Under the pieces are notes generated by a model. The model saw nothing but the letters and a program-made list of their open reading frames with translations, did no database searches and was not told the origin of the DNA. Shown here piece after piece: positions 14,915 through 32,268 of a stretch of 40,619 nt of DNA. Within the stretch, counting starts at the first letter, position 1, and each line of letters starts with the position of its first letter. Source of the DNA: Kangiellaceae bacterium (GTDB lineage: Bacteria > Pseudomonadota > Gammaproteobacteria > Enterobacterales > Kangiellaceae); assembly GCA_026196875.1 (NCBI GenBank), contig JAPHTP010000123.1:1-40619 (forward strand), in the 5' to 3' direction. A program made the position numbers and the translations under genes.

Positions 14915-17413
14915 ATGACGCAGTTAGCGCCTAAAAAACAGCTCCTTCTTATTAATTCTAATTCAGAACGTCTGGAAACTCTGCGCGAATTACTCGAAAA
15001 AGCTACCGCTTTTAACATTATCGGCGTGTTAAATGCCAAAGAAGCCGTTAGCGCACTCAAACGCGATCCAATTGACTTTATTATCTCAAATATACAGTTA
15101 CCGGATCTGGATGGCTGGCGCCTAGCCAGGCTGGTTCGCTCCGGTGTTTTGAAATGTCCTGCAGAAACCCCTTTTATTGTGGTCGCTAATACCTGGTGCG
15201 AACACATCGCGCAAACCACTGCTAGAGAATTTGGCATCAACGCATTGATATCCTTTGAGGAAAGAGAAAAACTCCCTGCACTTCTTGGTGAAGAGAAAAG
15301 CCAAGCACTCGAAGAGTTACAAAAACAAGCAATATTAGTTGTTGAGGATAATGTCGATACACGCCACTTAGTTGGTCGAATATTAAACAACCGTTTTCAT
15401 ATGGATATGGCTGAAGACGGAGAAACCGGCCTTAAGATGTGGCAGCCGGGAAAATACGCATTAGTGTTGTTAGACGTCATGCTACCTGGAATGTCAGGTA
15501 ATCAAGTTTTGTCTGAAATAATGCAACAAGACCCCAGCCAATCAGTTGTAATCATGACAGCCAATCACGCAATGGAACTTGCTGAAGAATTAATGCTTAA
15601 AGGGGCGGCGGATTTTGTCACCAAGCCATTCAGAGCAGAGCAACTCAGACGGGTTTGCGAAACTGCCGCACGCCGCGAAGATTTTATGATAAGTAATGAT
15701 CAATTTGCAGCCAAAGTCGATTCTCTAAATGAAAGCCGCAAAGAATATAAAAGGATTTTAGATGCCCACCAACACTTGTTAGATCAGCTTGGGAGTGTTG
15801 TTATAGAGTTAAATGCCGATGGCGATATTTGTTTTTTAAATCGAGCATGGGAAAAGCTCACGGGGTATAAAATTGCGGAAAGCCAGCAGCGTTCGCTACT
15901 TGACTTTATGGAGTCACCTGACACGCCCGGCGCATATGTATCCAACGAATTAAACACCATTTTAAATGGAAATGTTACTTCACACCGCTTCGAATTTAGA
16001 CTGAAAAACAAATACAACGAAGAGTTATGGGTCGAGGCTCGATTTGAAATCACTGCGACGAAAGACCACAAGAGCCGCAGTATTTCCGGCACTATAGACA
16101 ATGTAACTGCGCGTAAAAAAGCTCAGCGAGATCTGGAATATCTGGCCATGCATGACGGGCTCACAGGTTTATTTAATCGCCATTATTTCGAAACTGAACT
16201 TAAACAGTTCACTGCTACTGCCTGTAGAGGGAATGGACCACATTCGTTACTCTATATTGACTTAGACCACTTTAAGATAATTAACGATACGTTGGGACAC
16301 CATCAAGGCGATATTGTACTACGCAATATATCCTCTCTAATTTCTACTCGCCTGCGGGATTCCGACATCTTATCTAGAATTGGTGGCGATGAATTCGCCT
16401 TGTTATTACCCAATACCAACCAAGATACGGCATTAATAATCGCCGAAGATATATGTGAACTACTTGACGACTACCAATGTAAGCTCGAAGACCAGGTATT
16501 TCGGATCAATTGTTCAATTGGGGTAGCCGAGATATCGGGCAGCGAATCAAGCCCAGAAGAATATATGAAACGCGCCGATATTGCGCTTTACGCAGCTAAA
16601 AAACAAGGTAGAAATTTAGCCCACATTTACGATATCAACGATCAACACAGCAAAGCGCTACAAGCGAGCATGGAATGGGCACGTAAACTACATCAAGCGG
16701 TAGCCGACGATAATCTTGAACTATTCTTCCAGCCGGTTATCGAAATTGAAACAAAAGAAGTCGCTTATTACGAGGCGCTGGTTAGATTAAAAATTGATGA
16801 TCGTATTGTTTCACCTGGGGAGTTTATTCCCGCGTTAGAGCGCGAAGGTGATATGAGCTTGCTTGATCGACAGGTTATTAGTAAAGCCATCAAGTACATT
16901 CATGATTATCCGCAGCTAGATCGAATTGCCATCAATTTATCAGCACAAGGGTTTAGCGATGAAAGATTAGTACCATTGATCCAGGAAAAACTCGATTTGT
17001 ATAACGTGGAAGGACAGAGGATCATTTTTGAACTCACTGAAACCGCTAGTTTGAGCAATATCACCGCGACCAAGCAAATTGTCTCTAAAATCGGCAAACT
17101 GGGATGTGAATTTTCTATTGACGACTTTGGCACCGGCTTCAGTACTTTTAATTACTTAAAGGAATTACCTGCTCAATCGGTCAAAATCGATGGTTCGTTT
17201 GTCGTTGAGCTGACCAACAATCCGGTTGACCAAGCCTTGGTTAAAGCCATCTACGAAGTCGCCACTGCGTTAAATAAAAAGACTGTTGCAGAATTTGTTG
17301 AAAACGAAAAAACCTTACAGTTACTGCAATCCATCGGTATTACCTATGCCCAAGGTTATCATATTGACAAGCCAAAACCAGTTGATCAAATCGAGGCCCT
17401 GTTGGAAGCTTAG
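14915..17413 (+). CDS. REC-REC-PAS-GGDEF-EAL cyclic-di-GMP response regulator
   Basis: An 832-residue cytoplasmic signalling protein. The first receiver domain (about residues 8-125) is degenerate: the phosphorylation site reads 'FIISNIQLPDLDG', Asn59 in place of Asp. The second (about 138-255) is complete, with 'VVEDN', Asp187 in 'LLDVMLPGMSG' and Lys237 in 'VTKPF'. A PAS domain (about 280-400) and a diguanylate cyclase domain with intact GGDEF at 490-494 and an inhibitory RxxD (RDSD, 481-484) follow. The EAL domain has EAL at 620-622, 'IAINLSAQ', 'FELTET', 'IDDFGTGFS' and 'AEFVE', all catalytic residues apparently kept. It could both make and break c-di-GMP, controlled by phosphorylation of the second receiver. 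It is a single gene with no cognate kinase adjacent. Confidence 0.93.
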   Translation: MTQLAPKKQLLLINSNSERLETLRELLEKATAFNIIGVLNAKEAVSALKRDPIDFIISNIQLPDLDGWRLARLVRSGVLKCPAETPFIVVANTWCEHIAQTTAREFGINALISFEEREKLPALLGEEKSQALEELQKQAILVVEDNVDTRHLVGRILNNRFHMDMAEDGETGLKMWQPGKYALVLLDVMLPGMSGNQVLSEIMQQDPSQSVVIMTANHAMELAEELMLKGAADFVTKPFRAEQLRRVCETAARREDFMISNDQFAAKVDSLNESRKEYKRILDAHQHLLDQLGSVVIELNADGDICFLNRAWEKLTGYKIAESQQRSLLDFMESPDTPGAYVSNELNTILNGNVTSHRFEFRLKNKYNEELWVEARFEITATKDHKSRSISGTIDNVTARKKAQRDLEYLAMHDGLTGLFNRHYFETELKQFTATACRGNGPHSLLYIDLDHFKIINDTLGHHQGDIVLRNISSLISTRLRDSDILSRIGGDEFALLLPNTNQDTALIIAEDICELLDDYQCKLEDQVFRINCSIGVAEISGSESSPEEYMKRADIALYAAKKQGRNLAHIYDINDQHSKALQASMEWARKLHQAVADDNLELFFQPVIEIETKEVAYYEALVRLKIDDRIVSPGEFIPALEREGDMSLLDRQVISKAIKYIHDYPQLDRIAINLSAQGFSDERLVPLIQEKLDLYNVEGQRIIFELTETASLSNITATKQIVSKIGKLGCEFSIDDFGTGFSTFNYLKELPAQSVKIDGSFVVELTNNPVDQALVKAIYEVATALNKKTVAEFVENEKTLQLLQSIGITYAQGYHIDKPKPVDQIEALLEA

Positions 17414-17685: not shown

Positions 17686-19548
17686 ATGTCTTTATCCACT
17701 AGCAGGGAATTGCATTTAATCCCGAGCGAAGGATCGGAACTCAATATGGATCACTCACCGTCTTCCAATAAACCCACTGTCACTCAGGCTGAATCTCGTG
17801 CCCAAGATAATGCAGATCTAATTATAGAGTATTTAAAGGCTCTGAATGTTGAATATGTATTTGGAGTACCAGGTGGTGCAATAGAGCCCTTGTATAATGC
17901 TCTATCACGTAACCGGGATAGCGGAGGTCCACAAATCATTGTTGCCCGTCATGAAGCCGGTGCGGCATTTATGGCTGAAGGCTACGCAAGAGAAACGGGA
18001 AAAATTGGCGTCTGCTGTGCTACAACAGGGCCAGGAGCAACTAATCTATTAACCGGTGTGGCGTCTGCCTATGCCGATAATGTACCGATGCTGGTGATCA
18101 CTGCACAGACTCCATTGCCGAAATTTGGCAAAAATGCGCTCCAAGAGTCTTCATGTACAGCGATCGATACCGTTGGGATCTTTAGACACTGTACACGCTA
18201 TAACACTTTGGTGTCCCACGCCGAACAGATGAACAATAAGCTGGTTAGTGCGTTAATGACAGCTAACCGCGTTCCGGCTGGGCCGGCACATATCAGCATT
18301 CCGTCCGATATTTTGCGCCAGCCCATATCTGAAGATGTCATAATCAAAACTGACCGTTTAAAGCAAGAATTTGCGCTTACTGACAACGCTGCAGTCGAAC
18401 AATTAACTGAAATGTTATCGGGCTCCTGGCGAGTAGCCTTGTTTCTTGGGAAAGGTTGTGGCCCGGCAATTGAAGAAATCATGGAATTTGCCGAGCTGAC
18501 CCGCGCTCCAATTATGACCGGCCCGGCGGGTAAACGTTGGATTAATGGTTTTCATCCTCTTTATCGAGGCGTATATGGTTTTGCGGGTCACCAAAGTGCT
18601 GAAGAAACTATGAAAGATGAAACCATTGATCTCGTACTCGCTATTGGAACACAAATTACTGAGCTTGGCACAGGAGGCTGGCAATCATCGTTACTCGGCG
18701 ACCGATTAGTTCATATAGATTCGACAGTCGAACATTTCTCTCGCTCGCCGATGGCACAGCTGCATGTTTGTGGCGATATTAAGAGTATCTTTAATCAAAT
18801 AAATGAAAACGTTCGCCTCGGAATTAAATGGGGTCGAAGTTGGGATTCTGTCGATCCGGTTAAACAAAATTTTCTTGATCACCATAAACCAAGTTCAGAT
18901 CATGGGTATCAAATTCGTTTAAACGAACCTGAAAAAGCCCATTCAAATGCAGTGCCATTGAAACCACAGCGTATCGCGACGGAGTTTGCACGACAGATCC
19001 CCTCTTCCTTCCGCATACATTTGGACGCCGGGAATGTTTGGTCCTGGTTTACCCATTATTTTCATCGAGCAAGTGCTAAAGGGCATTACCATATTGCCAT
19101 GGGCTTTGGCTCAATGGGTTGGGCGGTTGGTGCTGCTGTTGGTACCGCTATTGGGAGTAAAGAGCCGAGTGTTTGTATCACCGGGGACGGGAGCTACTTA
19201 ATGGCCGGTCAGGAAATTACTTCAGCACTTCAACATCAAATTCCCGTTATCTATGTCGTATTTAATGATTCCGCTTTAGGAATGGTTAAACATGGCCAGA
19301 GGCTGGGCGGCGCAGAAGAAGTTGGCTTTGAATTACCGGAAATTGACTTTGCGAAAATGGCAGAATCAATGGGAGTTGAAGGAATCACTGTCCGCACGCC
19401 GAAAGAACTGTTGGCAATCGATTGGGTTCGTTTAGGTGAAAAACGAGCGCCTACTATGATCAACATTATTATTGATGGTGAAGAAATCCCCCCCATGGGA
19501 CAAAGAGTTAAAGGCTTGGCTGATCAGTCGGCGACTCCTGGGGGTTAG
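17686..19548 (+). CDS. Acetolactate-synthase-like thiamine diphosphate enzyme
   Basis: A 620-residue three-domain ThDP enzyme of the acetohydroxyacid synthase/pyruvate oxidase superfamily. After a polar N-terminal extension of about 42 residues come 'VFGVPGGAIEPLYNAL', the cofactor-activating Glu90 in 'RHEAGAAFMAEGYA', 'TTGPGATNLLTGVASAYAD', and the Mg-ThDP motif GDGS (500-503) ending at Asn527. No regulatory small-subunit (IlvN/IlvH) gene is adjacent, so a role in valine synthesis is not assured. Catabolic acetolactate synthase, sulfoacetaldehyde acetyltransferase or another 2-oxoacid lyase are alternatives. The ATG at 17686 has AAGAGG six bases upstream, supporting the long form. The gene converges on the citrate-synthase-like pair with only seven bases between stop codons. 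Confidence 0.8.
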   Translation: MSLSTSRELHLIPSEGSELNMDHSPSSNKPTVTQAESRAQDNADLIIEYLKALNVEYVFGVPGGAIEPLYNALSRNRDSGGPQIIVARHEAGAAFMAEGYARETGKIGVCCATTGPGATNLLTGVASAYADNVPMLVITAQTPLPKFGKNALQESSCTAIDTVGIFRHCTRYNTLVSHAEQMNNKLVSALMTANRVPAGPAHISIPSDILRQPISEDVIIKTDRLKQEFALTDNAAVEQLTEMLSGSWRVALFLGKGCGPAIEEIMEFAELTRAPIMTGPAGKRWINGFHPLYRGVYGFAGHQSAEETMKDETIDLVLAIGTQITELGTGGWQSSLLGDRLVHIDSTVEHFSRSPMAQLHVCGDIKSIFNQINENVRLGIKWGRSWDSVDPVKQNFLDHHKPSSDHGYQIRLNEPEKAHSNAVPLKPQRIATEFARQIPSSFRIHLDAGNVWSWFTHYFHRASAKGHYHIAMGFGSMGWAVGAAVGTAIGSKEPSVCITGDGSYLMAGQEITSALQHQIPVIYVVFNDSALGMVKHGQRLGGAEEVGFELPEIDFAKMAESMGVEGITVRTPKELLAIDWVRLGEKRAPTMINIIIDGEEIPPMGQRVKGLADQSATPGG

Positions 19549-19555
19549 TAATTTA

Positions 19556-20368
19556 TTAGATTGTACGTTTTGCCCGTCCTGTATAATTAATGTCATCACA
19601 CCTCAGTGGTAAATAAGTGTTACCACATGATGGTTCATATTCGACATGACAGGCCAAAACTCCTGCATAAGTTGCAACTGACTTCATGACTCTCATCTCG
19701 TCAGGTGTGAAGCCTTGATCGGATAAAAATGCATTTGCATAGCCGCCAAAATTCATAGCCATATTGAAATTCTCGGTCAAATACTCACTGATTTCATAAC
19801 CAAGAGATAAGTGAGGGCCAATTTCAAATCCCATTTCTTTTGAGAGTTTTTCATAAGGAGGAATTCTTTCATCAACTTTATCAACAGGGCGAGCATATCC
19901 ATTAATCATTGGTTTGCCTCCTTTTGAAGGAGCGTTTTTTAGTATATCGCAAACGTTTTTACCCTCTTGAACCTCCTTAAGTGCTCCCTGAATAAAGGTC
20001 ATTCCAACCAATGATGTAATGGAGCCACCATAAGCTCTGGATTCAGATGCAAGTATTCCTGCACATGCAGATGCTGGAGCAGATGCACTTGCGTCTCCTC
20101 CTAAAGCCCCGATAGAATTACACCAAATCCTAGAGTCTGGATAACTAATTCCAATAAAGTTCTGATCCAACCAATATCCAGTTTTTTTATCGATTAACTT
20201 TCCAGTACAACACAATGTCAAGACCTGCATAAAGCTTGCACTACCAAGCAAATCATTTAACAGGTCATGCTGATGCAAGAGAACATATTCTCCTCCTCTC
20301 CATACGCCCGATTTACTCTTAATCTGATCGCGTCTTGTATTCCAGAACATTAATTTGTCATCATTCAT
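19556..20368 (-). CDS. Citrate-synthase-fold protein B (catalytic residues apparently lost)
   Basis: About 270 residues with the citrate synthase/citryl-CoA lyase outline: an N-terminal 'TRRDQIKSKSGVWRGGEY' strand, a helical core, 'MINGYARPVDKVDERIPPYE' in place of the usual GFGHRVY-DPR loop, 'MNFGGYANAFLSDQGFTPDE' where homologues have NVDG...LGFP, and a C-terminal 'LPLRCDDINYTGRAKR'. By eye the three catalytic residues (His in GPLHGG, His in GFGH, Asp in NVD) are replaced by Tyr113, Arg160 and Gly208. The ATG at 20368 is preferred over one at 20383 because GAGG stands at 20377-20380. It overlaps the stop of gene A by 8 bases, so the two are translationally coupled and probably form a hetero-oligomer. 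Confidence 0.7.
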   Translation of the reverse strand: MNDDKLMFWNTRRDQIKSKSGVWRGGEYVLLHQHDLLNDLLGSASFMQVLTLCCTGKLIDKKTGYWLDQNFIGISYPDSRIWCNSIGALGGDASASAPASACAGILASESRAYGGSITSLVGMTFIQGALKEVQEGKNVCDILKNAPSKGGKPMINGYARPVDKVDERIPPYEKLSKEMGFEIGPHLSLGYEISEYLTENFNMAMNFGGYANAFLSDQGFTPDEMRVMKSVATYAGVLACHVEYEPSCGNTYLPLRCDDINYTGRAKRTI

Positions 20369-21161
20369 AAAAATAATCCTCATCTTTTACGAATGGCATC
20401 GATGTAATTGGTTTGTGGGTTTGCTCTAAGCCATGACATACAATAGCTGGCGCCAGCATGATCTGATAAAATCCTGCAGCTTCCCTTGCTCCAAACTTTA
20501 AGTCGCACAAGGTGGCAGCAGTTAATCCACTGGGTAGCCAACCTACTCTCTCATTGTTTATACTCATGATTAAATTATTCACCCAATTAATTGCCTTTCC
20601 ACACTGTGGAAGTTCAAGAAGTGTCTTCGCTAGATTGTGGCTAATCAGATCATGTCCTCCAAAAACGCTACCAATTCCACTCGCTATTCTGAAATCCCCC
20701 TCCAACTCCATGTCTAATTTACTTTCTAACTCTCTAGCTACATCTTTATGCGAGCGTTCCACATTTTGAGAAATAAATTTATATGCATGCATCACTTCAT
20801 CGGCTCCGTTGACCATGCCACTTTGAACTGAAAGCCCTATTGGTAACAAATTAGAATACCGAGTTTTAGATACTCCTGCTGTCATTGCTGCTCTAATTCC
20901 CGAAGTTCTTGGGCCTTGATTGATAAAACCGATCATCAACTTTTCAAGAATTAATTTCTCAGTACTGCTTGGAAGTTCCCCCTTGAACATTAAAAACAAA
21001 ACGTCTAGATAGTCTTTCTTTTCATTCAGTTCCTCAATATCATATCCATACAAAAATTGTTTACTAGCAATATATGGATTACCGGTAGAAGGCTCTTCCA
21101 ACAGGATATCAGTTGAAGTTTTATCAACATACTTAAAGTGTTTCGTTTGCTTTTTACTCAA
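20361..21161 (-). CDS. Citrate-synthase-fold protein A (catalytic residues apparently lost)
   Basis: A 266-residue protein with the citrate synthase pattern: 'SKQFLYGYDIEELNEKKDY' (compare YRGYDIEDLAE), 'LFLMFKGELPSSTEKL' (compare YLLLHGELP), 'VQSGMVNGADEVM' (compare SGPLHGGANEAVM), 'ASGIGSVFGGHD' (compare PGFGHRVY) and 'ERVGWLPSG' plus 'APAIVCHGLEQ'. In these places the catalytic His, His and Asp are Asn118, Ser165 and Gly207, so ordinary citrate synthesis is unlikely. The start is TTG (21161) with AAGGA seven bases upstream, only 14 bases after the stop of the TonB receptor, which places it in the receptor's transcript. Its distal end overlaps gene B. The function is unknown. Confidence 0.7.
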   Translation of the reverse strand: MSKKQTKHFKYVDKTSTDILLEEPSTGNPYIASKQFLYGYDIEELNEKKDYLDVLFLMFKGELPSSTEKLILEKLMIGFINQGPRTSGIRAAMTAGVSKTRYSNLLPIGLSVQSGMVNGADEVMHAYKFISQNVERSHKDVARELESKLDMELEGDFRIASGIGSVFGGHDLISHNLAKTLLELPQCGKAINWVNNLIMSINNERVGWLPSGLTAATLCDLKFGAREAAGFYQIMLAPAIVCHGLEQTHKPITSMPFVKDEDYFYE

Positions 21162-21175
21162 AACCTTTTCCTTAT

Positions 21176-23278
21176 TTAGAAATGATATCTCAACTCAGCA
21201 TGGACGCTTCTACCCGCTAGCGGTAAATCGTTAGGAATACTTGTTTCAAGAGGCTCTCTTAATTCGGCATCAAAAACATTCTTACCAGAGATCGCAAACT
21301 CAATGTCATTTTCATTATTTTTCCAGTGAACATTTAGATCTAGCCATGAGTTATCATCAATTTTTTCTCTAGTATCTGATGAAGCTCTTTTTCGTTCCAT
21401 GACGCTATGGATTTGAAAATTTGAACTCCAATTACTCGAGATTTTCCAATCTGCCATAAGATAAAACTGCTGTCTTGGAACATCAACCAAATCAAATCCC
21501 GTATCATCATCTTCAGAGTCCTGATAAGAAAAATTGGTGCTAAATGTTAAATTTTCAAATGCTTCCCAAGTAGCTTCAACTTCAAATCCTTGGCCAGATC
21601 TCTGACCAATGTTTTTGGCTGTAGTCGTCGTTAAACCTTCATCTGGAGAAAATTGAATTACATCGTCCCAATTATACTTAAAGATGCTAAATACAGTCGT
21701 TAAATCGTCAGTAGGTCGATAATCGAATACTAATTCTAAGGTCTCCATTTTTTCTGGCTGAACATCTGGATTACCTAGTGCCGCGGGATTATTTATTGCG
21801 TACAAATTTGCCATTGATGGAGCTCTAAACGCTTTTCCATATAGTAATTTAGAGGTTAGTTTAAACGAAGTTGACCAAACTACTGCAAACCTAGGGTTTG
21901 TAGTAGTTCCAAAATCAGAATAGTCATCATGTCGTAACCCAAATGTTACTTCCCAATCGTTAGCTACTTGCCAAACATCCTGAATAAATACATATAAATT
22001 CTTTCGATCTTCTTCTGGCAAAAAGACGTAAGGCGTATCTGAAACATCGACTACCGGACTACCTGGAGCTAAGAATTCTCCATTAGGGCCAAGCGCAAAG
22101 TTTTTGCTTTCTTTAGTTTTATATATCTCACTAAAATAGTAGCCAGTTCCCAATCGCAAAGAGTGAGAGCTATATCCACTATAAGTGTAAGTAAAATTCG
22201 CTCGATTATGGTTTTCGAAAACCTCAGGATTTCCTATCACCCCATCTGGAAATGGAGCACCAAAACCAATATCTGATCCTGGAGGAAACAATATTAGATT
22301 TCCGTCTATTTCTAGCGATGTATTAAACCGGCTGATTTGAAAATCAATTTTACTATTATCAGAAATATCAGTTTTATAATTAATATCGAAGTTCCATCTA
22401 TTACTAAAGCTTCTAGAAGTCGGTGTCAATGCTCCTGTTACCCCGATACCTAATCCCCTTTTCCTATATTGTGCTCCAACTCTGATCTTCCAATTATTAA
22501 AGTCTATTTGGCTTCGGAACTCGTGAGTTTCCCTCATATTCGACATAGGGCCCGGGGCATAAGAAGCATCCGTCCCAAATATTAAATCTAATTGAGATTG
22601 TGCGTCAGCCTCTACAATCTCTTCATGACCATCGGTCTGATAATATTGGTAATCAAAACGGACGGCCGCATCGTTTATGGTTCCAGTGGATGTAAGCCAA
22701 ACGCTTTGGCTGTTAAAGCTTCCAATTCTTCCACCCAATTCTACGTGAGACTCTGAAGACGTATCTTTAGTTATTATATTTATTACTCCGGAAAATGCGT
22801 CAGCACCATATAGAGCGGAGCCAGGACCTCTAATCACCTCCACTCTCTCAATACTTTCAACTGGAAATCCGCCCCAGACTTGTCCCCGATTCCCCACATA
22901 TATGTTTGTGAGCGGAATTCCATTCAACAACATCAATACTTGAGGATTAAATCTCGTTGTCACGCCACGAATTACGTATACAGGTTCGTTGCCAGCTTTG
23001 TTTCTACTAACATGGAAACCAGGTATTGTTTCCAAAATCTCATCTAAGTCAAGAAGCCCCATACTCTTAATCTGATCTTTGGTAACTACTGAGGCTACGG
23101 AAGGTGCTTTGTGGATTAACTGCTTAGTTCCTGTTGCCAAAGAAACAAAATCTTCATCACCATAGAAGTCCTCCAGATCTTCCTCAAACTCCTCTTCGTC
23201 CAACTCATCCGCTGCAACCGGCTGAGCAGAAAAAGCAAGAGCAATTGAGAGTGCCAGAAGTTTTAAACGAAAAGCCAT
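21176..23278 (-). CDS. TonB-dependent outer-membrane receptor (proximal copy)
   Basis: About 700 residues. The signal peptide is 'FRLKLLALSIALAFSAQPVA', followed by a very acidic segment (DELDEEEFEEDLEDFYGDED) and a TonB-box-like 'FVSLATGTK'. The plug domain runs from about residue 55 to 175, with 'VYVIRGV', 'GIPLTNIYVG', 'ERVEVIRGPGSALYGADAFS' and 'GVINIITK'. A 22-strand barrel ends in the terminal Phe typical of outer-membrane proteins. The substrate is unknown; siderophore, haem or small organic ligands are possible. A GTG exists at 23287, but the AAGGTGG at 23284-23290 points to the ATG at 23278. The paralogue next door has the same start context, and the two citrate-synthase-like genes follow within 14 bases. 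Confidence 0.93.
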   Translation of the reverse strand: MAFRLKLLALSIALAFSAQPVAADELDEEEFEEDLEDFYGDEDFVSLATGTKQLIHKAPSVASVVTKDQIKSMGLLDLDEILETIPGFHVSRNKAGNEPVYVIRGVTTRFNPQVLMLLNGIPLTNIYVGNRGQVWGGFPVESIERVEVIRGPGSALYGADAFSGVINIITKDTSSESHVELGGRIGSFNSQSVWLTSTGTINDAAVRFDYQYYQTDGHEEIVEADAQSQLDLIFGTDASYAPGPMSNMRETHEFRSQIDFNNWKIRVGAQYRKRGLGIGVTGALTPTSRSFSNRWNFDINYKTDISDNSKIDFQISRFNTSLEIDGNLILFPPGSDIGFGAPFPDGVIGNPEVFENHNRANFTYTYSGYSSHSLRLGTGYYFSEIYKTKESKNFALGPNGEFLAPGSPVVDVSDTPYVFLPEEDRKNLYVFIQDVWQVANDWEVTFGLRHDDYSDFGTTTNPRFAVVWSTSFKLTSKLLYGKAFRAPSMANLYAINNPAALGNPDVQPEKMETLELVFDYRPTDDLTTVFSIFKYNWDDVIQFSPDEGLTTTTAKNIGQRSGQGFEVEATWEAFENLTFSTNFSYQDSEDDDTGFDLVDVPRQQFYLMADWKISSNWSSNFQIHSVMERKRASSDTREKIDDNSWLDLNVHWKNNENDIEFAISGKNVFDAELREPLETSIPNDLPLAGRSVHAELRYHF

Positions 23279-23477
23279 TGTAACCACCTTATATTTTGTT
23301 TTATATGCTCACAGAATAAACCGCTAGCAATAGGTCAATACTTCGTTGAGTGAGATTTTACTAGACTGCCAAATTAAAGTCAGATATGACAACTCTCTGA
23401 TTTTTAATAGTTATTTGATTCAGTTTAGTCCAAATATTTCAATTCACAAGGATAGTTAAGTTGGATTCCCATAACCC
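23279..23477 (-). repeat. Duplicated leader region (copy 1) of the TonB receptors
   Basis: This stretch matches 25729-25936 upstream of the other receptor. The best-conserved block (about 23360-23440 against 25812-25892) is identical over most positions, and the start context AAGGTGGTT-A-ATG is shared. It presumably carries the receptor promoter or a regulatory leader. Together with the kinase-end remnant it shows that the duplication included the region upstream of the receptor. Confidence 0.75.
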
Positions 23478-23613: not shown

Positions 23614-25728
23614 TTAGTATTGATAGGTCATTGCGAACCAAACACCTCTTTCTTCAAGCGGATAATCGCCTAATATCTGACCATCACTAGGTTCAAATGC
23701 GTCTGAATCAGCCAGGTTTCTGATAGTAAGCTGAGTATCAAAGTTAGGAGTAACTTGATACTTGAGAGATACATTTGTCCAGTTATAATCTTTAATTTTC
23801 AGCCTTGAATCAGTACTTAGTCTATTCCTATCTATTATCCAACGTGTATCAAAATACATATTCAAGTCATCAGTAAGTTTCCAATTTAAACTGAAATCTA
23901 TCATTTGACCTGGAGCATCGGCAATTTCTTGATTATTTTCCGCATCTTCAGCATTTTGCCAAGCATAACCAAACTTTAAATCAATTTTTTCAGAATACTT
24001 CCAACGAATTTCTAATTCCGCGCCTGTTCCATCTTGTTTAGCAGTATTCTGAGCGACATTTGTTCCATCTTGCTGAGGCACATAAGTAATCAAATCTTCG
24101 GAGCTATACATATAAAAATTTCCAATCAGCTGCCAGTCAAAACCAGGTCGGTAATCCCAAACAACTTCATATGTTCGTATCTTTTCCGGTTCCAAGTTAG
24201 GATTTCCGATCACGACAGGATTGTTTATCGCATATAACTCTTGAAAAGATGGAGCGCGAAATGCTTCTCCATACAAAAATTTTGTTGTTAAATTGTGTTT
24301 TGTTTGCCAAACAAGCGCAACTCGTGGATTAACAGTACTACCAAAGTCAGAATAATCATCATACCTAATGCCGGTGGTCAATTCCCAGTCGTCAGCTAGA
24401 TGCCATTCATCTTGAAAGCTGAGGAAGTAAAGCTCTCTCTCCTGGTCAAACATATAAATATGTGGAGTCCCTCTTACATTAACGAGGCTTCCATCTCTAA
24501 AGTCTTCCGTCCCATCTAATACGCCTGGACCAAAATTCTTCAATTCTTCCGGTTTAGCTTCGCTTTTCCGATATCCTAACTCTGTTCTAAATAAGTGATC
24601 TTGTATACCGGAATATGTCGAAACCCAATTAACACCCAAATAAGTTTCGTGCGCAATTGGTCGGCCGATTACTCCGTCCGTGAAAACTGTAAACGCGGAG
24701 GGTACACCCTGTGCATCAAATGCTCTTGGTAACGCCATGCCCGGAGGAAAAATAACGAAGTAAGTATCGTCATCGTGAGTCTGATAGTAGCCCTTAATAT
24801 CCATTTTAAGCTCTTCAGAATTACTAAGCTTATAGCCAACGGCGAGAGTCAATGACTCAACTGTTTCGATATCATATAGCGAAAGAGCTTGCGCAGCCCC
24901 CGCCCCTGCACCACCTTCACTCTTTAAATACCAACCGTGCAAATATAGATTCTCGTATGATAATTGAGTATGAAAATCAAACGAGTCATATCTTGTATCT
25001 AAAGGTCCAGGAGCATTTGATAAAAAATCCAAACCTAAAGAGTGCATAGCATCCGTATCAACTATTCTGCTATCATCTCCAGCGGTTTCGTACCACTGAA
25101 CATTAAAGCTATAGTTTAATTTTTCTGAAGACTCCGAATAATTAAACCAACCGCTCTTGGTTTCAAATGAACCGAACTTAATTCCAAAATCAGAACTTTT
25201 CTTTCCACTTTCGCCCTTTGTAATAATGTTTATTACGCCCGAAAAAGCGTCAGCGCCATAAACTGCAGATCCTGGCCCCCGTATGACTTCTATCCTTTCA
25301 ATTATGTTCACACCAAGATTAAATTGTTGCCAACGCGAACCGGTATATTCATAGGTCGTCCTGATACCATTTACTAAAACCAATGTCTGAGGGTTTTCCG
25401 CAGTGTGTAAACCACGGATTGAAAAATTTGGTTTCATCCGATCCAAATTTGATGGATATATATGAATGCCCGTGACAGTCTCTAACACCTCATAAATTGT
25501 GTCAGCTCCCATAGCTTCTATTTCTGCAGCCGTGATTACGGTCGCAACAGATGGAGCTTTATGAATTGCTTTCTTAGTTCCCGTGGCAATACTGACAAAC
25601 TCCTCATCACCATAAAAACCTTCCAAATCGCCCTCAAAATCCTCGTCATCCATTTCGTAGGCATAGATAGGTTGAGTCGGCAAAATTAAGGCAATTGAAA
25701 GTGCTAGAAGTTTTAAGCGAAAATCCAT
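23614..25728 (-). CDS. TonB-dependent outer-membrane receptor (distal copy)
   Basis: About 704 residues and a full-length paralogue of the receptor at 21176-23278. The shared signal peptide is 'FRLKLLALSIAL', then an acidic 'DDEDFEGDLEGFYGDEE' and 'FVSIATGTKKAIHKAPSVA'. The plug has 'NFSIRGLH', 'VLVNGIRTTYEY', 'ERIEVIRGPGSAVYGADAFS' and 'GVINIITKGE'. The barrel has the conserved 'LYGEAFRAPSFQELYAINNP' and ends in Tyr. The plug apex loops and barrel loops differ from the other copy, suggesting a shifted ligand. The frame runs back to 25776, but the AAGGTGG at 25734-25740 selects the ATG at 25728. It lies about 210 bases downstream of the kinase. Confidence 0.93.
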   Translation of the reverse strand: MDFRLKLLALSIALILPTQPIYAYEMDDEDFEGDLEGFYGDEEFVSIATGTKKAIHKAPSVATVITAAEIEAMGADTIYEVLETVTGIHIYPSNLDRMKPNFSIRGLHTAENPQTLVLVNGIRTTYEYTGSRWQQFNLGVNIIERIEVIRGPGSAVYGADAFSGVINIITKGESGKKSSDFGIKFGSFETKSGWFNYSESSEKLNYSFNVQWYETAGDDSRIVDTDAMHSLGLDFLSNAPGPLDTRYDSFDFHTQLSYENLYLHGWYLKSEGGAGAGAAQALSLYDIETVESLTLAVGYKLSNSEELKMDIKGYYQTHDDDTYFVIFPPGMALPRAFDAQGVPSAFTVFTDGVIGRPIAHETYLGVNWVSTYSGIQDHLFRTELGYRKSEAKPEELKNFGPGVLDGTEDFRDGSLVNVRGTPHIYMFDQERELYFLSFQDEWHLADDWELTTGIRYDDYSDFGSTVNPRVALVWQTKHNLTTKFLYGEAFRAPSFQELYAINNPVVIGNPNLEPEKIRTYEVVWDYRPGFDWQLIGNFYMYSSEDLITYVPQQDGTNVAQNTAKQDGTGAELEIRWKYSEKIDLKFGYAWQNAEDAENNQEIADAPGQMIDFSLNWKLTDDLNMYFDTRWIIDRNRLSTDSRLKIKDYNWTNVSLKYQVTPNFDTQLTIRNLADSDAFEPSDGQILGDYPLEERGVWFAMTYQY

Positions 25729-25936
25729 TATAACCACCTTATATTCCGTTTTATTCGCTGACAGAATTAACTGCAAGCAAAAGTTCAGTACTTCTTTGGG
25801 AGAACTTATTTACTAGACTGTCAAACTAAAGTCGGATCTGACAACTCTCTGATTTTTAATAGCCATTTGATTTAATTTAGTCCAAATATTTAAAATCTCA
25901 AGGAGAGTTATAGGTTCGTTTTTGAATAGGCCCCCT
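25729..25936 (-). repeat. Duplicated leader region (copy 2) upstream of the distal receptor
   Basis: This is the counterpart of 23279-23477. It holds the conserved block at about 25812-25892, including TTGACA on the minus strand in 'AGTTTGACAGTC', which could be a -35 element although no convincing -10 follows. Next to the kinase stop is an imperfect hairpin of 13-base arms (25902-25914 and 25934-25946, two mismatches), the counterpart of the perfect one in copy 1. Confidence 0.7.
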
Positions 25937-27523
25937 TTAACTATCCACAGTTTCAGTTTCTTGTTGATAAAGCTTTTGTAAAGGCATCTTGACACTGAAG
26001 CAGGTACCCTCGCCCTCTACACTATCCACTTTGATTTCTGCATCCATCATTTGGCAGAAATTTTGAGTAATTGCCATCCCTAAACCAGTACCTTCAAACT
26101 TACGTGATTGGGAACCATCGACTTGAGTAAATTGTTCAAAGATAAAATCTAATTTATCTTTAGGGATCCCTACTCCCGTATCTGAGACAGAAAATCTCAG
26201 ATATCTATCGTCATTTTCTATCGAGAATTCGACTTTGCCGTTTTTAGTAAACTTGCAAGCATTACTCAAAAGATTCAGGAATACTTGCATGATCTTCTGT
26301 CTATCAAGATTCAGAGTTCTAGATAAACTCCCTTTATTAAGTTTTAATTCGTTACCGTTGGCAGTCGCCATTGGTAATATAGTTTCCATGGTATCGTTAA
26401 CCAAATAGTCAGTATCAACCGCTTGAATGTACAAATCCATTTTACCGGCTTCAATCTTGGCAAGATCCAAAATATTATTGATTAAGCCTAGCAATATATG
26501 AGCACTACGAATGGCTTTCCCCAAATCTTCAGCTTGGGGATCGAGACACTCAAGTTCCAAGTCTTCTTTAACCAAATCTACATAGCCAATAACCGCTTGC
26601 AGCGGTGTTCTTAACTCATGGCTTATGTTAGCTAAAAACTCAGATTTATGTCGGCTCGCAGTTAAAGCAGAATCTCTCGCTACCTTTAATTCTTGAGTTC
26701 TAATTTCAACTTCAGCCTCAAGGTTAGCTCTATGTTTTTCTAACTCTGCTCTTTGCTTTGCCAAACGACTCATCATCTGATTGTAAACAGCGGCCATTTG
26801 CCGAATTTCATTTGCACCGTGAATTTCCGCTAGTAAATAGTCGCCAGAATCACGCGCAGTTTCCATTGTTTGAGAGAGATGTGATAGTGGTGCAGTAAGT
26901 CTTTTAATTCCCCATCCCATTAAAATGGCGAGAATAGCGGTTAGAATTGCACCGATTGAAACATTATTGATAAAAATCGAATTTTGAATTTGCCGAAGTT
27001 CTTGCTTGTTATATTCAACTAACACATAACCTAAAAGTTGCTTGTCTGTTTCTCCTTCGTCGGGCTCAACTAGTTCAGGATCATCTTCTTCATCGACGAA
27101 GTAAACCGGCGCGCTAAACACCCAATAGTCATTCAAGTCTTCAACTAGTGTCGCTTCTTGTTTTATTTTATCCAAATCAAAATAAAACTGAATTTGTTCG
27201 CTCTTTGCGGAGGTTATTAAAACGTCACCGTCTGCTTTATAAACAGCCACTCCATCAACAGGGTTAAAACCTAATGCTCTTTGAACAGCTTCAACCGCAT
27301 TGTCTTCGCTTCCAGTCAACAATGCTAGGACCGCTTGGTCTGCAAAGTTACTAGTGACTTGTAGTCCATTATCAATAGTTGATTGTTCGACCTCTCGACT
27401 GGTTTGCCAGGCAGTAATAATAGAAGTTGTTAATGCGAGAACAAAAGCACTAAAAATAAAAAAACCAAGCAATTGTCTTTTAAAAGTAGATTTGGAATTA
27501 AAAGTAATGTTTCTCACAACCAT
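25937..27523 (-). CDS. Membrane sensor histidine kinase (periplasmic sensor-HAMP-HisKA-HATPase)
   Basis: A 528-residue kinase. A first membrane helix at about residues 18-39 and a second at about 185-205 enclose a periplasmic domain of about 145 residues, similar in plan to CHASE8-type sensors, with an acidic insert (about 144-160, rich in D and E). A HAMP region and coiled coil (about 208-290) lead to the H-box 'FLANISHELRTPLQAVIGY' with His302. The N-box is 'QVFLNLLSNACKFT', the G1 box 'DTGVGIP' and the G2 box 'EGTGLGMAIT', all intact. There is no receiver domain, and no response regulator gene is nearby. Its ATG lies 16 bases after the binding-protein gene stop, so the two are co-transcribed. 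A copy of its last 26 codons persists as a relict at 23478-23558. Confidence 0.93.
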   Translation of the reverse strand: MVVRNITFNSKSTFKRQLLGFFIFSAFVLALTTSIITAWQTSREVEQSTIDNGLQVTSNFADQAVLALLTGSEDNAVEAVQRALGFNPVDGVAVYKADGDVLITSAKSEQIQFYFDLDKIKQEATLVEDLNDYWVFSAPVYFVDEEDDPELVEPDEGETDKQLLGYVLVEYNKQELRQIQNSIFINNVSIGAILTAILAILMGWGIKRLTAPLSHLSQTMETARDSGDYLLAEIHGANEIRQMAAVYNQMMSRLAKQRAELEKHRANLEAEVEIRTQELKVARDSALTASRHKSEFLANISHELRTPLQAVIGYVDLVKEDLELECLDPQAEDLGKAIRSAHILLGLINNILDLAKIEAGKMDLYIQAVDTDYLVNDTMETILPMATANGNELKLNKGSLSRTLNLDRQKIMQVFLNLLSNACKFTKNGKVEFSIENDDRYLRFSVSDTGVGIPKDKLDFIFEQFTQVDGSQSRKFEGTGLGMAITQNFCQMMDAEIKVDSVEGEGTCFSVKMPLQKLYQQETETVDS

Positions 27524-27539
27524 AATTATCTTTCCATAA

Positions 27540-28457
27540 TTACTCAGGAAACGTTACTTTAAAATTTTGCTGCTGTTCATTACTGTACTTCAACCCTAAG
27601 TGCGCAGCAGTTCTTAGATTAACGGCCAATTGCAACGACTGAAGTGCGGCAAATTGTTTTTCCTCCGGCCTTGCCGCCAGTTCGTTGACCATTTTTAATA
27701 GGTGTTTGCCTAACCCCACATTGTCAGGATACGTCGAAAATAGTGCCCCTCTTTTTGCATGCGACGGCTTCGAAGAAAAAACCACAACTTCTTTTGACCA
27801 AGCCTTCTCTAAAATTAACGGCAAAGTAACTTTATCGTGTGAAGAAACTTTGTCTAATGGTAACCATATAGCGTCTTCTTTTGGTCGCGCTTGCTCAAAA
27901 GTTTTATTATAAAATGAGATCGCTTCCGCGGTATTGGCAACCTTCTTATGGATTAAATCGATCCCTAGCGATACAGCTGCTTTTTTGGCAATAGTAATAA
28001 TCCAACTGCTTCTTTCACTGTAAGCAACATGAACTCGTTTAACTGTTGGAGCGACTTGTTCAAGGAAAGCAAATAGGCTTTGTGGATCGGAACGAAGACT
28101 GACTCCAGATACCCCATTGGGGCGAATAGGGAGTGCACCTGATACAACATGGAACTCTTTGGGCAACTGCTTTGCCAATTTAAAGCCTTGACGACCAAGT
28201 ACAATGACTTTAGTAATTTGTTTGGAGCGCAGCTCATCTGCAATCTGATCAGCGTCAAATCCCTTTTTCAATAGAATCTTTTCTATTTCTACTTGTGAGT
28301 CGGCTTCCGAACCAGAAATAATTTCTTCGTAAATAGTGCGATAAGGATTCTTCGCCTCAGGATAAAATAGCGCGATTTTTTCTTTGGAAAATGCGAGTGC
28401 GGGACTTCCTATCAATAGGAATAAGCAACTGATGAATAAACAACCCCTAAATCGCAA
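27540..28457 (-). CDS. Periplasmic ABC-type substrate-binding-like protein (orphan)
   Basis: A 305-residue secreted protein with signal peptide 'GCLFISCLFLLIGSPALA'. Two Rossmann-like lobes follow: 'KIALFYPEAKNPYRTIYEEI', 'VIVLGRQGFKLAKQL', then 'GVSLRSDPQSLFAFLEQV', 'KRVHVAYSERSSWII' and 'VVVFSSKPSHAKRGALFS'. This is the pattern of the ABC_sub_bind family (PF04392). No ABC permease or ATPase gene accompanies it. Instead the sensor kinase follows within 16 bases, so it more likely captures a ligand for sensing. The start is TTG (28457) with AGGT eight bases upstream; an upstream ATG is closed by a stop in frame. The 241-base gap above it, after paaG, should hold the promoter of this module. 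Confidence 0.82.
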   Translation of the reverse strand: MRFRGCLFISCLFLLIGSPALAFSKEKIALFYPEAKNPYRTIYEEIISGSEADSQVEIEKILLKKGFDADQIADELRSKQITKVIVLGRQGFKLAKQLPKEFHVVSGALPIRPNGVSGVSLRSDPQSLFAFLEQVAPTVKRVHVAYSERSSWIITIAKKAAVSLGIDLIHKKVANTAEAISFYNKTFEQARPKEDAIWLPLDKVSSHDKVTLPLILEKAWSKEVVVFSSKPSHAKRGALFSTYPDNVGLGKHLLKMVNELAARPEEKQFAALQSLQLAVNLRTAAHLGLKYSNEQQQNFKVTFPE

Positions 28458-28698: not shown

Positions 28699-29487
28699 CT
28701 ACTCGCCCTTAAACCGAGGCTCACGCTTCTCAATAAACGCCGCCACACCTTCTCTATAGTCATGGCTTCGCCCTAAATGTTGCATCGCTAAGCGCTCTTT
28801 CTCTAGTTGGTCATTTAGACCGAAATCGAATGCATTATGGACCAGTGACTTGATATTGGCCAGAGCTTCAGTCGGCTGTGTAGCGAGATATGCAGCAAGT
28901 TTTTCAGATTCATCTAAGAAAGCGTCATCGTCAGCGACTTGGTAAATTACTCCCCACTGCTCTGCCTGTTCAGCTTTCACCTTGTTGCCCAGCATTGCCA
29001 TCGCTTTGGCTCTGGGTAGTCCAATAGCTCTAGCAAAGTGCCAGGAACTCCCGGAATCAGGCACCAAACCAACTTTAGCAAATGATAAAATAAAGCTAGA
29101 ACTTCGCGCGGCAATGGTAATATCGCAAGCCATAACCAAACTTGCTCCAGCCCCAGCTGCAACCCCATTAAGCGCACAAATTACCGGCATTTTTAGATTT
29201 GTTATGCGGCGAATTAGTGGATTGTAGTATTTTTCAACTGACATACCTAAATCCGGCGCAGCCTGATCGGCGCTAACGGCACGATCGTTCAAATCTTGAC
29301 CAGCGCAAAAACCTCGCCCTGCGCCGGTAATTAATAGGCAACGTGTTTCTCCATCAGTTGCAACCTCATCTAACGCAGCTTGAAGTTCTTCGTGCATCTG
29401 CACATTGAAACTATTTAGTCTATCTGGGCGATTTAGAGTTAACTTGGCGACACCTTCAGATTTTTCCAAAAGGATTGTTTGGTACAT
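28699..29487 (-). CDS. paaG: 1,2-epoxyphenylacetyl-CoA isomerase (PaaG)
   Basis: This crotonase-fold enzyme of aerobic phenylacetate degradation converts ring-1,2-epoxyphenylacetyl-CoA to oxepin-CoA. Its 262 residues follow the enteric PaaG sequence closely: 'LTLNRPDRLNSFNVQMHEEL', 'LLITGAGRGFCAGQDLNDR' (oxyanion-hole segment), 'APDLGMSVEKYYNPLIRRI', 'NGVAAGAGASLVMACDI' and 'KVGLVPDSGSSW', with catalytic Asp144. It is divergent from paaY, with 51 bases between start codons that must contain both promoters. Other ring-opening genes (paaABCDE, paaK) are not in the window. Confidence 0.92.
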   Translation of the reverse strand: MYQTILLEKSEGVAKLTLNRPDRLNSFNVQMHEELQAALDEVATDGETRCLLITGAGRGFCAGQDLNDRAVSADQAAPDLGMSVEKYYNPLIRRITNLKMPVICALNGVAAGAGASLVMACDITIAARSSSFILSFAKVGLVPDSGSSWHFARAIGLPRAKAMAMLGNKVKAEQAEQWGVIYQVADDDAFLDESEKLAAYLATQPTEALANIKSLVHNAFDFGLNDQLEKERLAMQHLGRSHDYREGVAAFIEKREPRFKGE

Positions 29488-30201: not shown

Positions 30202-32268
30202 TTAATTGTCTGAATGCTTGCGCTCAACTAAAGTTAAAATATCGTAAATGGCCACCGGGTCATTATGCTGATTGGTCACTTCAACGGCCCAGGCAACAAC
30301 ACCCGTATGGAATTTATCATCGGGCTTTTTACCCTTGTTAATTTTTCTTTTGCAAGTCAATTTAACCTGGATGGTATCGCCGATGGCAACAGGCTCAACA
30401 AAGCGCAAATTATCGATGCCGTAGTTGGCGATAACAGGACCGACTCCAGGGTCAACAAACATTCCCGCAGCGGCAGAAATCACAAAGTAACCATGGGCAA
30501 CTCGTTTTTCGAAGAATGAATCTTCTGCTGCTACTTCATCAAAATGTGCATAGAAGTGATCGCCGGAAACACAACCAAAGTTAACAATGTCTGCTTCGGT
30601 CACTGTACGTCGATGGGTAGTCAATGACTCACCAATTTCTAATTCTTCGAAGTATTTTCTGAAAGGATGAACACGATCGTTTTTAACTTCTGCACCTGGT
30701 GCATATTGATTTGTAATTGCCATCAGTGAAGTTGGTGAACCTTGAATTGCAGTTCTTTGCATATAATGTTTAATCGCACGAGCGCCACCCAACTCTTCAC
30801 CGCCACCAGCACGACCAGGTCCACCATGAACAAGTGGAGCAAGTGGTGAGCCATGGCCGGTGGACTCTTTGGCACAATCACGGTCAATAACAAGCATGCG
30901 GCCGTGATGTGAAGCAGAGCCTAAAATAATGCCACGAGCATTTTCTCGGCTATAGGTAAATACTGATCCCGCCAAGCTTCCTTTCCCCATCTTGGCAAGT
31001 TGAATAGCATCGTCCAAGTTTTCATAAGGCATTAACGTACTAACCGGACCAAAGGCTTCGACTTCATGAGGAGTTACAGCACTTAATGGATTTTTACAAT
31101 GCAAAAGTGTTGGTGACATGAATGCCCCTTTTCCATCTTCGACGCCGATGGTTTTAAATTTATCAAATCCATCTAACACCATTTCGCTCGCTTGTTTTAA
31201 TTGTTCTACAGCCGCGATTACATCTTCTCGTTGCGCTTTTCCAACTAAAGCCCCCATGCGAACCCCTTCTTGAGTTGGGTCTCCAATGACAGTACCGGTT
31301 AATCGCTTGATTAATGCTTCGGTCACTGCATCGACTTTATCTTGCGGAACAATCGCGCGACGAATTGCAGTACATTTTTGTCCTGCTTTAGTTGTCATCT
31401 CTCGAGCAACTTCTTTGATATATAAGTCGAACTCAGGATCTTCGACAGAAACATCGGGAGCAAGAATACAACAGTTCAAAGAGTCAGCTTCCATGGTAAA
31501 CGGAACACTCTTAGCCACAATATTTGGATGCGACTTAAGTTTTTGGCCCGTCGAAGCAGAACCGGTGAAAGTAACAATGTCTTGTTCGTTTACATGGTCC
31601 AAAATATCACCGACACTACCACAAATTAATTGAATACTCCCTTCAGGTAGAATTTTGGATTCGATGATTGCTTTAACAACTACTTCTGTTAAATAACAAG
31701 TTACGGTTCCAGGCTTAACAATTACTGGTACGCCAGCAATTAAAGTCGGAGCAATTTTCTCAAGCATTCCCCACACAGGAAAGTTAAACGCATTAATGTG
31801 GAGAGCAACGCCTTCTTTAGACGTCAAGATATGTTGGCCAACAAAAGTTCCTTTTGCGGATAGCGGCTCAACATTGCCTTCAACAACAAAAGTATCATTA
31901 TTTAATTCACGACGCGCGATTCCGGTATAACTAAAAACAGTCCCAATACCACCTTCAATATCAACCCAAGAATCAGCTTTGGTTGCACCAGTCATATAAG
32001 AAACACGATAAAAATCGTCTTTTCTGTCGAGCAAATACTTAGCTACTAGCTTAAGTTTTTCCGCCCTTTCGTGGGTTGTTAATTTGCGCAACGCTGGACC
32101 ACCAATATTACGGCCATACTCTAGAATTTCCGCAAAGCCGGACGTTAAAGACTTTACTTCACCAATTACTTGGTCGTTAATTGAATTAACTAACGTATCA
32201 CTGCGTCCATCGCCACTGACCCATTCGCCGCCGACGTAACTTTTTATTAGGTTTTCACTGTTGCTCAT
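30202..32268 (-). CDS. paaZ: Bifunctional oxepin-CoA hydrolase / semialdehyde dehydrogenase (PaaZ)
   Basis: The enzyme opens the oxepin-CoA ring and oxidises the resulting aldehyde in phenylacetate degradation. It has 688 residues, the usual fused form. The aldehyde dehydrogenase domain (1 to about 520) carries '[16 protein letters not shown]', '[11 protein letters not shown]', general-base Glu260 and nucleophile Cys299 in '[12 protein letters not shown]'. The C-terminal MaoC-like hydratase (about 540-685) has '[12 protein letters not shown]' with the Asp-His catalytic pair and '[13 protein letters not shown]'. It is the third gene after E1 and E2 of a 2-oxoacid dehydrogenase, 76 bases downstream of E2 on the same strand, suggesting one transcript. 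Confidence 0.95.

Follow-up and report, generated by a model that had tools for sequence, protein, structure and literature searches.

A coupled pair of citrate-synthase-fold proteins from a Kangiellaceae bacterium lacks the catalytic triad and diverges together with a TonB-dependent receptor

Described relatives and fold of the A and B proteins

Citryl-CoA lyase (X-ray structure 6hxp, Hydrogenobacter thermophilus) and the corresponding module of ATP-citrate lyase are described relatives of two overlapping genes, here named A and B, that are located on contig JAPHTP010000123.1 of a Kangiellaceae bacterium (assembly GCA_026196875.1; the whole analyzed stretch of 40,619 nucleotides is referred to as the window). 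The proteins have the same length and fold as the lyase and align with it by profile over nearly their full length; in contrast to the lyase, A and B of the window are devoid of the His/His/Asp triad, form an obligate pair of unlike proteins, conserve other residues and are encoded among genes for a thiamine diphosphate (TPP) enzyme, a TonB-dependent receptor (TonB), a binding protein (SBP) and a histidine kinase (HK). Citrate synthase and 2-methylcitrate synthase (PF00285) belong to the same superfamily, and B retains the arginine of the citrate synthase DPR motif in the form DER (84 of 84 aligned sequences); however, A and B are shorter by about 100 or more residues, A scored below the Pfam cut-off (E 0.002; 17.7 bits versus 27), and B gave no match to PF00285 in the Pfam profile search and is not placed among the citrate synthases by it.

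For the other genes, known counterparts exist as well. The TPP enzyme shares three TPP domains, the RHE glutamate (presumably the catalytic one) and the GDG...N motif with ScyA- and acetolactate-synthase-type enzymes, but its scores remained far below the respective model cut-offs (310.3 versus 538.35 for acetolactate synthase; 276.9 versus 1000 for the ScyA-related model). Alpha-hydroxyketone quorum sensing (LqsA/LAI-1) provides no more than a lead to a possible product class, if the TPP enzyme joins acyl units; LqsA and CqsA are pyridoxal phosphate enzymes and are not known to be accompanied by a TonB receptor, a citrate-synthase-fold pair or a TPP enzyme. The TonB receptor and YfiR-like protein of the TOL_0244/TOL_0243 type (models NF053590 and NF053591) are comparable in that a YfiR-like cluster was present near B in 5 of 84 loci (87 loci without L018-L020, duplicates of L024, L043 and L056), whereas the window and 48 of the 84 loci contain an SBP of family PF04392 instead and the models comprise neither TPP enzyme nor A and B. 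A TOL_0244-family receptor is reported to be seven-fold increased on a long-chain alkane and to resemble an alkane-detecting receptor (PMC6304351). The parts are of known kinds, and their combination as well as the A/B pair are apparently undescribed: in the open-licence literature (subscription papers and preprints lie outside this scope) no description of a triad-less citrate-synthase-fold pair or of this module was found, in agreement with the first, sequence-only reading of the window, which knew of no such system.

A (20361-21161, minus strand; 266 aa) starts with a TTG at 21161 that is directly preceded by AAGGAAAAGG. B (19556-20368, minus strand) comprises 270 aa if translated from the ATG at 20368 and 275 aa from the earliest in-frame ATG at 20383, which would extend the overlap with A to 23 bases; the ATG at 20368, situated behind GAGGA, is the most plausible start on sequence grounds and gives the originally noted overlap of 8 bases (20361-20368; ATGAATGA).

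NCBIfam models of citryl-CoA lyase matched both proteins over most of their length (E values of 1.4e-14 for A and 2.7e-13 for B); the PRK06224 citryl-CoA lyase models remained far below their cut-offs (A, at best 54.1 bits versus 212; B, 49.7 bits versus 245). Profiles built from the family alignments detected 6hxp with E values of 4.4e-27 (A) and 8.1e-18 (B), and the AlphaFold2 models (pLDDT of 94.0 and 92.9, respectively) both had 6hxp as best Foldseek match in the PDB (TMq of 0.76 for A and 0.79 for B). The profiles of A and B matched each other by hhalign with a probability of 99.1 at 14% identity, and an alignment of 19 citrate synthases with probabilities of 96.3 (B) and 94.4 (A). On the basis of these profile, Foldseek and A-B matches, both proteins are to be regarded as diverged members of the citryl-CoA lyase branch within the citrate synthase superfamily, with common fold and sequence ancestry; homology to the citrate synthase fold had already been supposed from alignment by eye. 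A search with NF004864 returned mostly longer citrate-synthase-like frames. A role as stand-in for citrate synthase was rejected: the host carries two citrate synthases with intact motifs.

Catalytic triad places and conserved residues

The triad of 6hxp is taken here to consist of the histidines of SAHGG and GYGHR and the aspartate of NVDG, as recognized through the known citrate synthase motifs. Residue equivalences were derived from sequence and profile alignments; for three of the six triad places, these disagree by 1-3 positions (numbers of B residues follow the family alignment; one is to be added for the protein starting at 20368). In A of the window, Val117 and Ser165 occupy the two histidine places in the alignments with both 6hxp and the 19 citrate synthases, and the aspartate place is held by Ser211 (6hxp) or Trp208 (citrate synthases). 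In B, the first histidine place corresponds to Ala111 (6hxp), Tyr112 (another alignment) or Gly114 (citrate synthases), the second to a gap (6hxp) or Arg159 (citrate synthases), and the aspartate place to Gly207 in both. None of the three catalytic residues was present at the aligned places of either window protein in any alignment made, as claimed beforehand; the loss of the triad is therefore firm as judged from the alignments, the identity of the exact replacing residue less so. Of the substitutions proposed in the sequence-only reading, Tyr/Arg/Gly for B is one of the supported solutions, while the Asn assigned to A lies one residue off (Val117).

Among 81 sequences of A, residue 117 is His in 34, residue 165 is Ser in 39 and residue 211 is Thr in 43, each being otherwise mixed; the adjoining residue 210 is Asp in 7. 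Among 84 sequences of B (three pairs of which are more than 95% identical), Ser74, Asp77, Ile80, Trp81, Asn83, Arg159, Pro160, Asp165, Arg167, Asn205 and Asp216 are invariant; Arg79 is present in 83, and position 112 holds Tyr in 82 sequences and Phe in the remaining two. At position 207, Asn occurs in 44 sequences and Gly in 31, and residue 111 is mixed, with His in a single one. The same pattern recurred in 21 further sequences of B, mostly 33-73% identical to the nearest aligned one (86% in one case): Arg79, Trp81, Asn83, Tyr112, Arg159, Asn205 and Asp216 were found in 20 of the 20 covering these positions and Arg167 in all 21; Ser74, Ile80 and Asp165 were not constant. (The 21 are 22 matches without L200, which is from the same contig as L101; two are pieces of one broken gene.) Since the old triad was lost and a different polar set became fixed in B, the conserved Arg79, Trp81, Asn83, Tyr112, Arg159, Arg167, Asn205 and Asp216 have the pattern of a site that was changed rather than abandoned.

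A short citryl-CoA-lyase-like protein of another locus (L137, 1438-2214, minus strand) by eye keeps the second histidine and reads TMEG and NATG at the other triad places; from this protein, partial loss of the triad may also have occurred elsewhere in the citryl-CoA lyase branch.

Pairing, distribution and gene neighborhood

A genome scan with the B alignment yielded 196 relatives, of which the best 80 were used. Among these, relatives were present in Aliikangiella, Catenovulum, Colwellia, Rheinheimera, Alteromonas, Cellvibrio, Teredinibacter and Neptuniibacter, and also in Gallionellaceae, Desulfuromonadales, Desulfobulbaceae, Candidatus Electrothrix, Candidatus Magnetaquicoccus and others, many of them as metagenome-assembled genomes. 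In 78 of the 80 loci, A immediately precedes B (in L051 it is cut by the contig start), and in the two exceptions (L081, L099) B begins near the contig start so that the place of A falls outside the contig. A and B are thus a widespread, obligately coupled pair; the coupling had been surmised in the sequence-only reading from the overlap. This recurrence in 78 of 80 loci also led to rejection of chance or mis-called reading frames; pseudogenes were rejected for the window because of its two intact reading frames and the residue conservation, and phage or plasmid cargo was rejected, B being without match in a phage and in a plasmid collection.

In 41 genomes around the host, B was detected in 7 and A in the same 7, adjacent to B (A matched in 9, of which G026 and G034 were excluded, since there the match covers a mere 31-34 residues of a frame of citrate synthase length, 436 aa). 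At E <= 1e-80, the TPP type was found in these 7 and in G036, and the SBP in the 8 genomes with TPP enzyme, in G021 and, weakly, in G020; G036 was rejected as a case of TPP enzyme without A/B, its TPP gene ending at the contig end. Among 274 genomes of the class, 33 contained B, 37 the TPP enzyme (E <= 1e-150) and 30 both; the SBP (E <= 1e-20) was present in 37 genomes and together with B in 29 (the three scans are taken to cover the same 274 genomes, the listed handles being in agreement). The lists behind these counts were compiled by hand. For B, 33 were kept of 50 genomes in which it matched at E <= 1e-3: low scorers, mostly long citrate-synthase-like frames, were excluded, among them two longer matches to short frames in G131 (56 bits) and G252 (44 bits), and short high-scoring pieces in G092 and G104 as well as a broken copy in G074 were retained. 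The latter genome harbors a decayed copy of the module (L176) with B, TonB and TPP genes in pieces.

In the window, the genes for SBP (27540-28457; PF04392 ABC_sub_bind), HK (25937-27523; sCache_4 sensor domain by domain match), a second, tandem TonB receptor (23614-25776) and the TonB receptor beside A (21176-23287; both receptors fall into the same cluster) precede A and B on the minus strand in a single run that begins with the SBP gene; the latter receptor ends 14 bases upstream of A, as previously noted. On the plus strand, the TPP gene (17686-19548) is convergent with B, and a gene for a regulator with receiver, PAS, GGDEF and EAL domains (14915-17413) lies upstream of it. TPP enzyme, SBP, kinase and GGDEF-EAL protein belong to the module of A and B, a link that was absent from the sequence-only reading: 47 loci extend for at least 8 kb to either side of B, and of these 46 contain a TonB receptor, 44 a kinase or GGDEF-EAL protein, 42 the TPP enzyme and 35 a PF04392 SBP; over the full set of 84 loci, which also counts the truncated ones, the numbers were 78 (TonB), 69 (signaling protein), 66 (TPP) and 48 (SBP). 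The TPP enzyme looks active by its motifs, the RHE glutamate and GDG being present in 65 of 65 sequences and the Asn of GDG...N in 64.

The arrangement SBP-HK-TonB-A-B facing the TPP gene, with a signaling gene beyond the latter, was seen by eye in 15 of 80 loci; the window has the same order plus its second TonB gene. Of the 78 loci in which the neighboring gene can be read, 16 have the TPP gene directly upstream of A on the same strand. Four genomes of one genus from another family (L204-L207) display a head-to-tail run TonB-A-B-TPP-SBP-HK (e.g. L206, 5504-14251), and in L206 four of the five junctions overlap, TonB/A and B/TPP through TGATG and A/B and SBP/HK through ATGA.

Variants of the sensing part were observed in several loci. 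In L058 (5465-8488), the positions held by SBP and kinase in other A/B loci are taken by a YfiR-like periplasmic protein, confirmed by profile, together with a GGDEF-EAL protein. In magnetotactic-type loci (L200-L202 and L101), TPP, A and B genes are followed by a giant protein of ~1730-1770 aa and a response regulator; the giant protein of L200 contains protein kinase, AAA, GAF and histidine kinase domains. The same TPP type is found beside an HK and a FIST-domain protein in L183 (8647-12691) and L184 (9399-13440), with no A/B or TonB gene within the stretch; these genes are perhaps another sensory partner of the TPP type.

In two loci the place of A and B is taken by other enzymes: L179 (9506-10303) encodes a SAM methyltransferase between TPP and TonB genes, with SBP and HK following, and L180 (4691-6060) a ketoacyl synthase III and a 131-aa protein (no Pfam match), followed by TonB, SBP and HK. 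As ketoacyl synthase III occupies the same slot, acyl-CoA-dependent C-C chemistry is suggested there by analogy, such as the citrate synthase fold also performs. The additional neighbors of A and B likewise look biosynthetic from their families: an asparagine-synthase-type amidotransferase, a short-chain dehydrogenase/reductase (SDR), a major facilitator superfamily (MFS) transporter, an O-methyltransferase, a condensation-like protein and a sulfotransferase were found in single loci, and the genes directly following B in L203 encode a phosphopantetheine carrier protein as well as an AMP-binding ligase; counted by cluster, SDR occurs near B in 18 and amidotransferase in 4 of 84 loci.

Co-divergence within the module and its interpretation

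Distance correlations were calculated over the 58 loci that possess A, B, TonB and TPP genes (subsets for SBP, 42 loci; HK, 32; GGDEF-EAL regulator, 40). A and B were most closely correlated (r = 0.85), and both followed the receptor (A, 0.58; B, 0.60) rather than the TPP enzyme (A, 0.09; B, 0.23); TonB and TPP correlated with r = 0.48. The TPP enzyme, in turn, was tightly correlated with SBP (0.86), HK (0.84) and regulator (0.62), for which the values of A were 0.19, 0.45 and 0.24, respectively, and those of B 0.27 (SBP) and 0.45 (HK). With TPP distances held constant, partial correlations with the receptor were 0.61 for A and 0.57 for B, each matched by 0 of 2000 permutations; given TonB, that of A with TPP was -0.26. 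The pattern persisted on removal of the most divergent A/B clade and on removal of the clade of the window. A, B and the receptor hence diverge together, TPP enzyme, SBP and HK form another block, and the receptor tracks both. The exchange between blocks is apparent from single comparisons: the TPP enzymes of the window and L023 are 77% identical, their A and B proteins 24% and 22%; conversely, L059 and L046 share 89% (A) and 82% (B), and 54% in the TPP enzyme. A coupling of A/B and TonB through adjacency only was rejected: in the 13 loci where A is immediately preceded by the TPP gene, the receptor continues to follow A and B (partial correlation of A with TonB 0.75, with TPP -0.11).

The following mechanism would account for these results. 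A and B would be the two unlike subunits of one enzyme, derived from a homodimeric citryl-CoA lyase/citrate synthase ancestor, whose His/His/Asp chemistry would have given way, chiefly in B, to a different set of conserved residues, with Tyr112 at or next to the place of the first histidine, Arg159 at or next to that of the second, and in addition Arg167, Asn205, Trp81, Asn83 and Asp216. As part of the synthesis of a small diffusible molecule, this A/B enzyme together with the TPP enzyme would make or break a C-C bond, and the A/B allele would set the structure of the molecule; the cognate TonB receptor would take the molecule through the outer membrane, SBP and histidine kinase would report it, and the receiver-PAS-GGDEF-EAL protein would convert the signal into a c-di-GMP response. 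The enzymes in the slot, the biosynthetic-looking neighbors and the receptor following A/B more than the TPP enzyme does are most simply accounted for by synthesis of the molecule by TPP enzyme and A/B, determination of the variant by A/B and its recognition by the receptor. The fold, the loss of the triad, the substitute residues, the pairing, the place in the module and the co-divergence of A, B and receptor are observed; the heterodimer, its catalysis, the self-made ligand and the signaling are what we infer. Taken as a whole, the proposal that a heteromeric A/B enzyme and the TPP enzyme produce a diffusible ligand, recognized by the cognate receptor and sensed by the module, stands about evenly balanced in our judgment. 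As the TOL_0244-family receptor is reported to rise on a long-chain alkane and to resemble an alkane-detecting receptor, a hydrophobic ligand is possible by analogy.

The alternatives offered in the sequence-only reading, a sensor, a scaffold or an enzyme with new chemistry for "two dead homologues", can be weighed on this basis: deadness does not fit the conserved substitute residues of B, the enzymes filling the slot in two loci and the biosynthetic neighbors, and of the three options the enzyme with new chemistry is favored from the sequence data.

Several findings weigh against the proposed synthesis and sensing of a self-made ligand. A is weakly conserved, with 6 invariant positions across 81 sequences, and could be non-catalytic. 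The two blocks are not cleanly separate, the receptor being also correlated with SBP (0.60), HK (0.64) and GGDEF-EAL regulator (0.61), and A with HK (0.45, see above). In 49 of the 58 loci a TonB gene is the immediate neighbor of A or B, and joint transfer of neighbors could therefore partly contribute to the receptor co-divergence. Of the seven genomes with TPP enzyme but no B, two have the slot replaced (G073, G172) and one is cut at the contig end (G245); in the others, however, the TPP gene lies away from the module (G115, G242, G243) or beside no module on the one visible side (G244), so that the TPP type also works without A/B. Finally, L163 (1841-11109) encodes SBP, HK, TonB and GGDEF-EAL proteins, but TPP, A and B genes are missing from this stretch and were not detected elsewhere in the genome, their place being taken by an AAA_14/DUF4143 ATPase gene as well as an EAL-like fragment; with the sensing genes occurring without the enzymes, the ligand may also come from outside.

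This last locus is also in line with a catabolic module, in which TonB, SBP and HK would import and sense an exogenous compound and the TPP enzyme and A/B, working in the lyase direction, would degrade it. The nearest solved relatives of A and B are lyases, the window receptors match, below its cut-off, the model of the TOL_0244 family, a receptor of which is reported to be raised on a long-chain alkane (PMC6304351), and phenylacetate-type genes of PaaG and PaaZ type (28699-29487 and 30202-32268) lie beside the module in the window. The PaaG cluster, however, was found by neighbor clustering in only 7 of 87 A/B loci, the amidotransferase, carrier-protein, adenylation, ketoacyl synthase III, methyltransferase and MFS neighbors look biosynthetic, and by motif test an ABC ATPase lies no farther than 8 kb from B in only 3 loci, whether all 84 are counted with the truncated ones or just the 47 with full flanks, so that an ABC importer for passage beyond the periplasm is seldom at hand; degradation of an imported compound is accordingly held to be unlikely.

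TonB receptors mostly import metal complexes, and in the pyoverdines receptor and synthesis diverge together. The product might thus be a metallophore or nutrient carrier, with uptake as the point and SBP-HK regulating its genes only, and the window receptors match B12/siderophore models, again below the cut-offs. The same scarcity of ABC ATPases near B and a GGDEF-EAL protein as the linked output speak against such a carrier, which we regard as rather improbable, slightly more so than degradation. A and B might instead act inside the cell, without catalysis, as a sensor or adaptor that responds to a CoA ester or acid and controls the TPP enzyme or kinase. Such a role would agree with the triad missing in both window proteins and with the location of A/B among signal-transduction genes, but is the most doubtful explanation: a sensor of an imported ligand is expected to stay with the sensing genes, yet these persist alone in L163, the correlations of A and B with SBP and HK fall below those with the receptor, and enzymes occupy the slot in L179 and L180.

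If the synthesis of an A/B-determined ligand holds, the weakly placed citryl-CoA-lyase relatives would be the variable synthase part of a widespread module for small-molecule production and sensing; another chemistry would be added to the citrate synthase fold and a new route to diffusible metabolites gained, and synthase and outer-membrane receptor would provide a tractable case of two components diverging together. The core that can be tested is compact, with four to six genes that form a single head-to-tail run in some genomes. More tentatively, and with more doubt than conviction, the module could represent a new class of bacterial chemical communication, in which a heteromeric citrate-synthase-fold enzyme and a TPP carboligase would form allele-specific molecules for co-evolving TonB receptors with SBP/HK/c-di-GMP readout; such a class would span Gammaproteobacteria, Gallionellaceae, desulfobacterial groups, cable bacteria and magnetotactic bacteria.

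Outside the module, the window contains a 586-aa reading frame without Pfam match at E <= 1e-5 (525-2285) and genes for the E2 component (32345-33658) and the fused alpha-beta E1 component (33673-35775) of a 2-oxoacid dehydrogenase complex.

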